A DNA stretch of 35,676 nucleotides from Candidatus Anaerofilum excrementigallinarum (GCA_019115305.1 DXDW01000128.1:1-35676), one strand, 5' to 3'; numbered from the stretch's first letter, positions 31,373 through 35,676 are shown. Translations and numbers: made by a program. Notes: generated from the letters alone by a model not told the origin.

Positions 31373-31449
31373 GGGCCATTAGCTCAGTTGGTTAGAGCTG
31401 GCGGCTCATAACCGCTTGGTCCCGGGTTCAAGTCCTGGATGGCCCACCA
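31373..31449 (+). tRNA. tRNA with CAT anticodon (elongator Met or lysidine-modified Ile2; not resolved)
   Basis: GGGCCAT/ATGGCCC acceptor; anticodon arm GGCGG-CTCATAA-CCGCT; GGTTCAAGTCC; CCA encoded; TGGTATAAT upstream at 31332-31340. Confidence 0.9.
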
Positions 31450-31681: not shown

Positions 31682-31722
31682 CAAAACCCTCCCGCCGGCT
31701 TTGCAGCCAGCGGGAGGGCCCG
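31682..31722 (-). terminator. Terminator of the surface-fibre locus
   Basis: ccctcccgc...gcgggaggg with a T-rich tract on the minus strand (ttttgttttgc). Confidence 0.75.
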
Positions 31723-31751
31723 CGAATCTTTACAGAGAAGCTATGTAGTTG

Positions 31752-32726
31752 TTATTCCTGGGTGCCGCCGCTCTTTTTCTTGCGGGTGACAAGCCAGGCA
31801 ATCAAACCGGCGATCACTGCCACGCCAGCTACGCCGCCGACCACAGCGCCCACATTCATGCCTTCACCGGCAGACTGGGGAGTCTCGTTCTCATCGATGT
31901 CCTCGCCCTCGTCGCCTTCGTCGGTGCCGGGAGCCAGAGGGGTCTCGCCCTCGTCGATGTCTTCGCCTTCATCGGTACCGGGAGTCAGCGGAGTCTCGCC
32001 TTCGTCGATCTCCTCGCCGCCCTCATCAGGGCCTACTACCACCGCGCCGCCGCCGGGCACAGCCACGTCATCATACTCGATCACGGTGCCGCCGGGCAGG
32101 TACTCGGTCACATTGTTGGTGTGAATCACCGGGGTGTAGTAGAAAATGATCTCGTTTTCACCAGCCGTGATGGTCACGGTCTGGGCGCCGCCCACAGCAT
32201 TGTATTCGGTGACAGCCACAGGATACAGGGTAAGCTGGCTGTTCAGGTTGGCCACGCCGCGCAGGGCGGGAGCCACTTCTTCACCGGTTTCCTGGTCCAG
32301 GTAACGCACCACATAGCTGCCTTCCTGGCCCTGCTGCAGCAAAGAGTACTGGGCCACGCCGCTGCCGTCGGCGGTAATGGAGGTGACACCCTCCAGACCG
32401 CTGGCCACGTTATTCACATAGTAACGGTCATCCGACAGCTGAATGTCGCTCATCTGGGGCACCACAGTACCCAGTTCGGTGCCGGATTCCACCATCACCG
32501 CCACGCCGCCGGCCTCGGTGGTCTTCACATTTTCGGCACCCAGGGTTTCGGTCAGACGGGTGGTATAGCTTTCAGCAAAGGTGCCGTGCTCACCGGGATA
32601 AAACACCACAATGTAGTTGTTTTTCTCCTCTTCGCCGTCCGCTGCAAAGGCAGGTACTGCCATCAGGCTCATCGCCATACACAGAGCCGCAGCCACTGCG
32701 CACAGCCGTTTGATGGTTCCTTTCAT
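31752..32726 (-). CDS. Secreted surface protein with MucBP-like segment, acidic repeat stalk and C-terminal TM/KKK anchor
   Basis: Signal peptide MKGTIKRLCAVAAALCMAMSLMAVPAFAA; VVRYLDQETGEEVAP; DEGEDIDEGETPLAPGT repeats; GAVVGGVAGVAVIAGLIAWLVTRKKK. Confidence 0.8.
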   Translation of the reverse strand: MKGTIKRLCAVAAALCMAMSLMAVPAFAADGEEEKNNYIVVFYPGEHGTFAESYTTRLTETLGAENVKTTEAGGVAVMVESGTELGTVVPQMSDIQLSDDRYYVNNVASGLEGVTSITADGSGVAQYSLLQQGQEGSYVVRYLDQETGEEVAPALRGVANLNSQLTLYPVAVTEYNAVGGAQTVTITAGENEIIFYYTPVIHTNNVTEYLPGGTVIEYDDVAVPGGGAVVVGPDEGGEEIDEGETPLTPGTDEGEDIDEGETPLAPGTDEGDEGEDIDENETPQSAGEGMNVGAVVGGVAGVAVIAGLIAWLVTRKKKSGGTQE

Positions 32727-32729
32727 GGC

Positions 32730-33461
32730 TCAGTCCTCCTTCTCTTTCTTCTTTTTCTTCCAGCTCAGGAAGACGAAGCCGCCGATGGCCACCACAGCCA
32801 CGCCGCCCAGAATCCACACCAGGCTGTTATCGCCGGTCTGTACATACCGGGTCTGGGTGACTACCTCGGGAGGCAGCTGCACCTGATTGACCACCGTTTC
32901 GGTGACAGGCTCCAGTTCCTCGGCAATAAACTGGAACTGGATGCTGCCCACGGCGTTCTGGTAATCGTTGTCCAGGCTGGTGCCGTCGGCCTGCAGCATC
33001 AGGGAAACGTCCACCGATTCCCCGGGCTCCAGAGTGGCCACCATCTGGTAGTTTTCACCATTGGTGCGGCCCAGGATGCTGTTCAGTTCTTCCAGCTCAC
33101 CGGTGCCGTCACCACCCAGCAGAGCGCCGGTGGCCTCGCCGGTGGCGGGATCAAAGCCGTACAGCACGCTGTCACCGCAGGTCAGGCTGACGGTATAGCC
33201 GGCGCCGGACGCGCCGTCCTGGGACAGGGTGTTCACCACGTTGGTGTCCATGTAAAAGTTGGCGATGTTTTTGCTGGTGTTGGTCAAAGTGATGGTATCG
33301 GTATAGGGAACGCCGGGCAGCATGCTGCCGAAAGCATCCATACCGCCGGTGCACTCCAGAGTCTCGCCGTTATACACCACGCTGCCATTCTCCGCTGCAA
33401 AGCAGTTGATGGACAGGGCCGCTGCCAGCGCCAAAGTCAGGCCGAATATTCTCTTTTTCAT
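32730..33461 (-). CDS. Secreted, membrane- or wall-anchored surface protein with degenerate QTGD motif
   Basis: Signal peptide MKKRIFGLTLALAAALSINCFA; C-terminal YVQTGDNSLVWILGGVAVVAIGGFVFLSWKKKKKEKE. Confidence 0.78.
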   Translation of the reverse strand: MKKRIFGLTLALAAALSINCFAAENGSVVYNGETLECTGGMDAFGSMLPGVPYTDTITLTNTSKNIANFYMDTNVVNTLSQDGASGAGYTVSLTCGDSVLYGFDPATGEATGALLGGDGTGELEELNSILGRTNGENYQMVATLEPGESVDVSLMLQADGTSLDNDYQNAVGSIQFQFIAEELEPVTETVVNQVQLPPEVVTQTRYVQTGDNSLVWILGGVAVVAIGGFVFLSWKKKKKEKED

Positions 33462-33489
33462 GCTTTTTCACCTGTCTTTCTGTCGCTGC

Positions 33490-34167
33490 TTACTGGCGAA
33501 CGCTGGCAATATTGCCGTTTTCGTCCAGTTCTACCTGCACGCCCCAGCTGGCCTTGATGCCCGCCGCGTTCACTTCGTTGTAGTCGGCGCCTGCAAACTG
33601 TACGCCCTCGGCCACGGCCTCCAGCACGATGGCCTTGTCGGCGTATGCATTGCTCAGGTCGGCGGCAATATCAAAGCTTTCCAGCAGACCGGCGGTAGCA
33701 GTGCCGGCATCCACCGGAGAGGTGCAGTAGAACACCTGGGTCTCATCGCTGTCCTCATCGCTAAACAGGGCAGCCAGGCTTTTCGCCTCCAGCCAGCCCT
33801 CAGCGTTGGGGTTCAGGGTGATCTTACCGGCGTCCAGATCCTCCAGCTTTTCGCCGGTTTCCTTGTCCGCCCAATATTTACGCACGGTAACGCGGATATA
33901 ACTGTCCACGCTGCCGGTATTTTTCACACTGTAATTGTCGGTGACCGCCACATCTTCGTCGCCGGGCATAACCACACCGTCGAACACGGCGTCCACCTCT
34001 TCGGTATCTCCGTTATCGGAATTGAATGCAATTGTCAGATTCGGGGCCTGCAGCGGTGCGGTAACAGGTGCATTGCCGCTGGCCTGCCCTGCCGCCAGAG
34101 AGCCTCCGGCCGCCGCGGCTGCCAGCAGTACCACCGCTGCCCCCATCAGCAAAAATCTTTTTTTCAC
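33490..34167 (-). CDS. TasA/camelysin-like secreted protein
   Basis: GTG start (VKKRFLLMGAAVVLLAAAAAGGSLAA). DGVVMPGDEDVAVTDNYSVKNTGSVDSYIRVTVRKYW...FYCTSPVDAGTATAGLLESF...EAVAEGVQFAG resembles the TasA/CalY domain. Confidence 0.7.
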   Translation of the reverse strand: MKKRFLLMGAAVVLLAAAAAGGSLAAGQASGNAPVTAPLQAPNLTIAFNSDNGDTEEVDAVFDGVVMPGDEDVAVTDNYSVKNTGSVDSYIRVTVRKYWADKETGEKLEDLDAGKITLNPNAEGWLEAKSLAALFSDEDSDETQVFYCTSPVDAGTATAGLLESFDIAADLSNAYADKAIVLEAVAEGVQFAGADYNEVNAAGIKASWGVQVELDENGNIASVRQ

Positions 34168-34180
34168 GTGAAACTCTCCC

Positions 34181-34705
34181 TTATGCTTTCTTTGCGGGAT
34201 CTTGCCGCGCCGTATTGCCGCGTTTGGATTTCCCTCGGTCTGCAACTGTCCATAGAACAAGCGCCAGAGCAAATATTGCTGCGCAAATTGCGATCCCGCT
34301 CGGCTGTCGCAGAGCTGTCGCCATTCGTCCCCAATAAGGGATGCTGTATTCCACCCGGCCGATCACTCGGTCGTAACCCACTGGGTAGACATCCGCCTGG
34401 GCGTTTGCGTCGCCCTTTGTCACCAGCTCTTGGCTGGCTGTGTCGTTCTCCACCACCCGGTGAGTTTCCACCAGGCCTGTACGGGAGCTTAGTTTGTAGG
34501 TGATGATGTCGCCTGGCTCCAGCTGGGCCGGATCACAGGCCTTTACATAGATTGCACTGCCCACCGGCAAAACCGGCGTCATGCTTGTGGTGAGGATTTC
34601 AAAGATTTGGTATCCGAATAGTTTGGGAACGGTAAGGGGAAGGGCGGCGGCAACCAGCGCCAGCACCAGCACCGTTGCCACAGCGTTCAGTGCTTTTGCT
34701 TTCAT
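34181..34705 (-). CDS. SipW-like (ER-type) signal peptidase I
   Basis: FEILTTSMTPVLPVGSAIYVKACDPAQLEPGDIITYKLSS...LVETHRVVEND...LVTKGDANAQAD; N- and C-terminal TMs; Ser/His rather than Ser/Lys arrangement. Confidence 0.88.
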   Translation of the reverse strand: MKAKALNAVATVLVLALVAAALPLTVPKLFGYQIFEILTTSMTPVLPVGSAIYVKACDPAQLEPGDIITYKLSSRTGLVETHRVVENDTASQELVTKGDANAQADVYPVGYDRVIGRVEYSIPYWGRMATALRQPSGIAICAAIFALALVLWTVADRGKSKRGNTARQDPAKKA

Positions 34706-34771
34706 GCCGCCGCCCCTCTCAGATCTTACGAAAAATATTTACTGTGAAAACGTGCAAGCTTTGCCCAAAGC

Positions 34772-35419
34772 TCAGCCCACAAACAGCTTGTTCAGCTCAT
34801 CCACAGTGGTGTTGCCCAGCTCGGGAGCAGGCAGGTTCGCAGCCTGAACAGCAGCAGCAGCAACGTCGATGTTCAGCTCGGCTCCAACGTATTCATTGCC
34901 CCATTCGCCAGGAATGTTCAGGTAGCTGAACAGATAGGCGGTATTCTCAGCGCTGTTAGCGCTGATAGCATGGGGATAGTAGAACACCAGAGAACCTGCG
35001 CCGCCATCCGCACACAGCCAGCCGCGCTGCTCGCTGGCAGCAACGATCTGATCATACAGGGGCTGCATATCGGTCACCAGACCTTCGGGGTCACTTGTGT
35101 TGGTGATGAAAACCCGAATTGCTACATAGCAATCCTGCGAACCCTCCTGCACGGCTACCGCCACGTTTTTGCCGATCTGGTCGCCGGGCATCACGTCGCT
35201 GTAGTGATAGCCGCCCTTGTCGTTCTTTTCAAAGGTCCAAACTTCATTCTCATCCACCTTGAAGGCTTCGTCGATCAGCTCAACGTCCACATTGCCGGTG
35301 GTGAAAACATTGGTCTTGACATCGGTCTTATCGGTGAAGTAGGCCAGAGTAGCGCCCACACCGATCACCGCAACCAGAGCCAGGCTGGCAGCAGCGGTGA
35401 GAAGATTTTTCTTTTTCAT
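34772..35419 (-). CDS. TasA-like protein with SipW-dependent-type signal peptide
   Basis: MKKKNLLTAAASLALVAVIGVGATLAYFTDKTDVKTNVFTTGNVDVEL matches the SipW-dependent signal pattern; SDVMPGDQIGKNVAV; C-terminal LNIDVAAAAVQAANL. Confidence 0.85.
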   Translation of the reverse strand: MKKKNLLTAAASLALVAVIGVGATLAYFTDKTDVKTNVFTTGNVDVELIDEAFKVDENEVWTFEKNDKGGYHYSDVMPGDQIGKNVAVAVQEGSQDCYVAIRVFITNTSDPEGLVTDMQPLYDQIVAASEQRGWLCADGGAGSLVFYYPHAISANSAENTAYLFSYLNIPGEWGNEYVGAELNIDVAAAAVQAANLPAPELGNTTVDELNKLFVG

Positions 35420-35464
35420 GCTATGTACCTCATTCGATCAAAAGGATTTTCCGGTTTAGAGAAA

Positions 35465-35676
35465 TTAGTCAGCTTTCCTGCCCTGGAAGAAGTTATCGGC
35501 GCTACCAGCTTCAGTCACACCGGCCTCATAAGCGGCTTTGGCATCGGCAAAGTTGGCAGTCTGGATAGCAGCAACCTCAATAGTAATGTCCTGCAACTGA
35601 GTAGATGCCATCGCCTCTTCCGCGATATCTGCAACCTGCACCTTAGTAAATACATTGCCCAAAGAACCTTCGAATT
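35465..35676 (-). CDS. Second TasA-like protein, C-terminal part only (runs off the window)
   Basis: SLGNVFTKVQVADIAEEAMASTQLQDITIEVAAIQTANFADAKAAYEAG shares the I-x-VAA-x-Q-x-AN C-terminal pattern with the neighbouring TasA-like protein. Confidence 0.65.
   Translation of the reverse strand, partial: FEGSLGNVFTKVQVADIAEEAMASTQLQDITIEVAAIQTANFADAKAAYEAGVTEAGSADNFFQGRKAD

Follow-up and report, generated by a model that had tools for sequence, protein, structure and literature searches.

At one end of a contig of Candidatus Anaerofilum excrementigallinarum (GCA_019115305.1, DXDW01000128.1:1-35676), we analyzed a run of six packed minus-strand genes that encode a SipW-like signal peptidase, TasA-like proteins, and two secreted proteins with tailed C-termini. 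The window is the whole stretch of 35,676 bp, which is the entire contig C34 of a metagenome-assembled genome (MAG) with 245 contigs and 84% completeness.

Gene content and organization

In transcription order, the run begins with T0 (35465-35674), a TasA-like protein of which the C-terminal 69 aa are present, the frame being open at the contig edge. It continues with T1 (34772-35419; 215 aa), a TasA-like subunit with a LAYFTD SipW-type signal, and with the SipW-like ER-type signal peptidase (34181-34705; 174 aa). T3 (33490-34167; 225 aa, GTG start) is a divergent TasA-like protein, and A1 (32730-33461; 243 aa) a secreted protein with a sortase-type C-terminus. The last gene, A2 (31752-32726; 324 aa), encodes a secreted, MucBP-like protein with an acidic proline-rich stalk, a transmembrane (TM) segment, and a basic tail. 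All are on the minus strand, and the successive gaps are 45, 66, 13, 28, and 3 nt. A terminator-like hairpin of 17 pairs (31684-31721, minus strand) closes the operon, with by far the longest stem among the terminator-like sites of the region (seven found vs. 4.5 expected).

A preliminary description of this DNA had listed these six open reading frames (ORFs), and all were confirmed in the sequence at the coordinates given here. The translational coupling geometry it had proposed for A1 and A2 was found as well: the stop codon of A1 ends at 32730, the ATG of A2 begins at 32726, and an AAGGAGG ribosome-binding site for A2 is read at 32735-32741 (minus strand), inside the end of A1. The claim of a six-gene system did not hold, because contig C34 ends within the locus –so that T0 is cut and the run is incomplete at its 5′ side– and relatives carry around 10-12 genes in the full cluster.

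Homologues of the five complete proteins are about 35-63% identical in several other genera. In comparisons with as many as seven relatives, every complete gene varied most at codon position 3 (for A1, 0.39, 0.34, and 0.53 at positions 1, 2, and 3). The cross-genus homologues and the third-position excess indicate that the six ORFs are protein-coding rather than chance frames. Given this codon-position pattern, a long plus-strand ORF at 31749-33557 was discarded as a shadow of the minus-strand genes.

Signal peptidase and putative fibre subunits

The SipW-like protein matched TIGR02228, the ER-type signal peptidase model, above its cut-off (82.2 vs. 51.85 bits), and remained under that of the Bacillus SipW equivalog NF046067 (70.1 vs. 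190 bits). Its gene was the only SipW copy detected in the MAG. T1 exceeded the cut-off of the SipW-type signal model TIGR04088 (35.2 vs. 19 bits), and T0 presented 52% identity over 60 aa with the TasA-like region of another locus (L027). T3 matched neither TIGR04088 nor any other family above cut-off. For PF12389, T1 fell below the gathering score (20.7 vs. 22.5 bits), T3 gave no match, and nothing anywhere in the genome exceeded that score. The BsaA family TIGR04090, with a cut-off of 60 bits, was not reached by T1 (27.8 bits) or T3 (17.2 bits).

Profile comparisons with hhalign recovered the homology of T3 and T1 (99.1%, E 4e-19, over 179 columns). The joint T3/T1 profile aligned with Bacillus subtilis TasA at 97.2% (E 3.7e-11) over the N-terminal ~80 residues, with the signal peptide adding to the score, and the T1 profile alone reached 78.8%; the T1 homologue alignment holds eight members. 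The letters of the B. subtilis TasA query were checked against 8aur and 5of1. At the level of sequence profiles, the kinship of T1 and T3 with TasA holds. The assignment of the locus to the SipW/TasA type, already made in the preliminary description, is supported by this alignment and by the TIGR02228 and TIGR04088 matches above cut-offs.

In TasA, the N-terminal strand (F29, I32, and F39) inserts into the next subunit (PMC9674648). We defined the donor-strand aromatics as an aromatic residue after the LA of the signal plus a phenylalanine about ten residues further. They were kept in 21 of 23 T1, T1b, and T3b proteins, T1 of this window included, and were present in none of the 12 T3 proteins. 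Since T3 is without the donor-strand signature and adjoins A1, we infer that it ends the chain at the anchor, and it may act as a base adaptor between the fibre and A1.

A1 and A2 at the proposed base of the fibre

The C-terminus of A1 presents a QTGD motif (YVQTGD), followed by a TM segment and a charged, basic tail. A1 scored above the cut-off of the LPXTG-anchor model TIGR01167 (20 vs. 15.9 bits), which was matched in 11 of 14 A1 homologues. The TGD of the sorting-type motif (codons T209, G210, and D211; 32829-32837, minus strand) was invariant in 14/14 aligned near homologues. These near homologues have xxTGD without a proline; the distant ones carry NPQTGD, NPNTGD, NPRTGD, SPDTG, or PPQTGD.

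A TasA-like gene lies directly upstream and on the same strand in 28 of the 29 A1 homologues across the class Clostridia, and 25 of those 28 homologues have a TG motif just ahead of the TM segment. The 29 loci were retrieved via A1, so the neighbor was not selected for; several are close relatives and not independent. The sole exception is a 551-aa open frame (L033:6295-7947; A1-like match, E 6e-21) without a TasA-like neighbor. In five further loci, derived from the BsaA model, a comparable tailed protein adjoins the TasA-like gene; four of the five matched A1 weakly, and the tail motifs were PPTGDD, IPKTGD (in two loci), LPKTGS, and PATGG. The strongest argument for a wall anchor is the recurrence of TG-motif tails in A1 homologues and in BsaA-type loci, and A1 would most simply be the sortase-anchored base of the fibre.

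A2 matched MucBP PF06458 with 16 bits at residues 140-198, below the gathering score of 23, and weak MucBP matches were seen in 7 of 11 A2 homologues (best E 7e-5). The signals of A1 and A2, as read from the sequence, are of the ordinary Sec type ending in AxA-type sites, so both proteins are probably not SipW substrates. The two tailed proteins had been described as a pair of anchors. For A1 an anchor role would fit the TIGR01167 score, the invariant TGD, and the sortase genes in the clusters of several relatives, whereas A2 appears to be MucBP-like, more variable than A1, and without a clear TG motif. That the tailed proteins replace TapA would be at most a functional analogy.

A conserved cluster in related genomes

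A1 was found in 14 of 199 genomes of the same family and in 14 of 392 across the class. Strong T3 matches (E <1e-60) occurred in 13 of the 199 genomes, all among the 14 A1 carriers. Among the hosts, those with names, from a scan of genome contigs with a closer set of A1 homologues, are Bittarella massiliensis, Fournierella massiliensis, and Gemmiger sp., in agreement with the gut Firmicute host expected beforehand: the MAG belongs to the Bittarella/Fournierella/Gemmiger family. Two congeners were searched and neither A1 nor T3 was found, so the distribution is patchy.

One gene order is common to Bittarella, Fournierella, Gemmiger, and other genomes. It runs from a SARP-type regulator, a conserved protein of ~155-175 aa, a giant surface protein, a TasA-like protein, and a second SipW to further TasA-like proteins, SipW, T3, A1, and A2. 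In five relatives, a cluster sortase adjoins A1 or A2. Conserved synteny had been proposed as a check, and this shared order supports it, as does the TasA-like gene ahead of A1 in 28 of 29 loci. A1 is the constant, conserved core of the cluster, and TasA-like genes are the most numerous component of each locus. A smaller version in two loci (L028 and L029) consists of TasA-like, SipW, T3, A1, and sortase genes. The giant proteins tested matched VWA, DUF7601, DUF7604, DUF5979, or weakly SpaA, and those seen end without a TM segment and basic tail.

The small conserved protein (~155-177 aa) that follows the SARP regulator and precedes the giant protein was present in each of the seven loci extending to that region (e.g., L021:16080-16547, L024:17709-18242, L025:1307-1825, and L030:17676-18185). 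Its L021 copy had no Pfam match.

Some genomes carry several copies of the locus. Three pairs of a TasA-like gene and A1 lie within ~23 kb of one contig (L114 and L115; G508:C14:132000-156000), which suggests paralogous fibre bases in one genome. At least two A1/A2/T3 loci per genome were seen in F. massiliensis (G138; L023, L034, and L124) and in Gemmiger sp. An87 (L043 and L044), each of them at a contig end or on a tiny contig. Assemblies probably break where the fibre locus is repeated, and the same may have happened at the end of contig C34.

Three sortases were detected in the genome of this MAG, one of them an orthologue of the sortase in the clusters of relatives. This nearest relative of the cluster sortase, on contig C211, carries the motif TLSTC and is located apart from the fibre locus, with a SARP-type regulator as its neighbor (L037:8525-10661); another genome (G025) likewise has a sortase beside a SARP gene. 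The rest of the cluster was sought elsewhere in the MAG, and only this sortase and SARP pair appeared, with no further TasA-like gene. Near the end of the fibre operon, a tRNA-Met (CAT) gene lies on the plus strand (31373-31449) as a possible integration site.

A possible wall-anchored fibre and its alternatives

We lean modestly towards the view that the locus is the 3′ portion of a cluster conserved in Clostridia, which would build a TasA-type surface fibre anchored to the wall. The observations behind it are the gene content, the homologies, the synteny, the C-terminal motif, and the sortase genes.

How the fibre would polymerize and be anchored, and what T3, A2, and the giant protein would do, are deduced from these sequence features. 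The SipW-like peptidase would trim the TasA-like proteins T0, T1, and probably T3. T1-type subunits would then polymerize by strand complementation through their N-terminal donor-strand signature, as TasA does, and T3 would sit at one fibre end, probably as the adaptor to A1. A1 would be exported by Sec and held by its C-terminal TM segment until a sortase joins its QTGD motif to the wall. A2, translated right after A1, would lie next to the fibre base as a surface protein of MucBP-like type, and the giant VWA or SpaA/Cna-B-like protein of relatives would be a likely tip or binding part.

Several results weigh against this interpretation. This A1 has no canonical LPXTG/NPXTG proline, NPxTG being found only in distant homologues, and the TG motif is missing in three of the distant ones. 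None of the three sortases adjoins the fibre locus in this genome. Neither the giant protein nor the second SipW was found in the MAG, an absence that is weak evidence because the MAG is 84% complete. In G018, one of the congeners without A1 and T3, the C211-type sortase occupies the same chromosomal position but has no regulator beside it, and the sortase frame is open over 255 of the 256 positions of the model. There, the sortase is not dedicated to the fibre, which weakens the idea of a fibre-dedicated sortase in this genus. Moreover, deletion of srtB in Clostridium perfringens left the pellicle and the BsaA polymers unchanged (PMC7395162). A dispensable srtB is compatible with a sortase that acts on the anchor rather than on the fibre, without directly supporting it.

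Structure predictions neither confirmed nor contradicted a TasA-type jelly-roll fold. AlphaFold2 models were good for T3 (pLDDT 80.7) and moderate for A1 (pLDDT 65.0), and neither had a Foldseek match in the PDB with E <1e-3. The T3 model was nearest to cohesin modules, with TasA outside the top 50; for the A1 model, the TasA fibre 8aur ranked 29 (E 0.026). Sequence-profile searches of the PDB gave no match.

A1 and A2 could instead be membrane-held chaperones or nucleators like TapA or CapP, with no sortase step and the TG motif as a relic. Precedents exist: TasA filaments are started by a strand that TapA donates (PMC10151520), and Bacillus cereus uses the sortase-independent CapP (PMC13082335). 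The absent motif proline of A1 and the lack of an adjacent sortase at its own locus point the same way. Against it stand a TGD kept in every near homologue, NPxTG in distant ones, and a cluster sortase in five relatives, and we judge this explanation unlikely. The presence of that sortase, together with giant proteins with VWA, DUF7601, DUF7604, or weak SpaA domains, would also suit an ordinary sortase-built pilus made of the giant Cna-B-like protein and A1, with the TasA-like proteins as secreted accessories. Such a pilus is quite improbable when TasA-like genes are the most numerous per locus, the giant proteins seen lack the terminal TM segment and basic tail, and A1 is a small one-domain protein without a repeated pilin.

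Finally, the tight and conserved T3-A1 gene order, the donor-strand region kept in T1-type proteins, and the filaments formed by the relative BsaA (PMC7395162) all argue against a non-fibrous system, in which T1 and T3 would be soluble SipW-processed proteins (e.g., antimicrobial or protease-like) and A1 and A2 unrelated surface proteins. Fold searches with T3 that did not recover the TasA fibre, and a Pfam family named metallo-endopeptidase, speak for it; we regard it as very improbable.

The wall-anchored fibre could even be a separate Clostridia filament class: a non-covalent donor-strand polymer of TasA type, with a T3 adaptor, a sortase-fixed A1, and a giant VWA/Cna-B-like adhesin. This is a tentative proposal, and we hold it to be rather doubtful. 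If true, one organelle would join the principles of TasA fibres and sortase pili. There is no settled account of how TasA-type fibres attach to cells, and even among Bacillus species TapA is not conserved (PMC10151520). Located directly after a TasA-like gene across Clostridia and ending in a sortase-type tail, the A1 family gives an answer that can be tested in gut anaerobes. It would also point to a surface organelle in common commensals, some parts of which may bind mucus or the host. We found no description of this composition in gut Clostridia in the open-access literature, a search that left most subscription papers and preprints outside.

Relation to characterized filament systems

The locus, for which a fibre function is a reasonable proposal, is probably a variant of the Bacillus biofilm-fibre system. 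The closest characterized system is sipW-bsaABCRSD of C. perfringens with its flanking srtB, where BsaA forms filaments and SipW is needed for BsaA export (PMC7395162). Both share SipW, a TasA-like filament protein, other secreted proteins in the operon, and an adjoining sortase gene (PMC7395162). They differ in that T1 is well under the BsaA cut-off (27.8 vs. 60 bits) and that several TasA-like proteins and A1/A2 are present here. Besides, relatives carry a giant VWA/Cna-B-like protein and a SARP regulator, whereas C. perfringens has the BsaRS two-component system.

With tapA-sipW-tasA of B. subtilis, the locus shares a SipW-type peptidase, TasA-family subunits, and an accessory protein in the same operon (PMC9674648). 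Here, however, the accessory protein A1 has a sortase-type C-terminus, the cluster has more genes, and the similarity to TasA detected by hhalign is limited to the N-terminal 80 residues. The B. cereus system of sipW-calY/tasA and CapP likewise combines at least two camelysin/TasA subunits, SipW, and a non-TapA accessory protein (PMC13082335, PMC10151520). There, CapP controls TasA/CalY filaments without a sortase (PMC13082335), and no A1-type protein with a TM segment and TG-motif tail was found in those accounts. Sortase-assembled SpaA-type pili resemble the cluster in the sortase, the TG-motif tail, and a large surface protein with VWA and Cna-B-like domains, whereas the repeated subunits here are TasA-like and carry no sorting signal.

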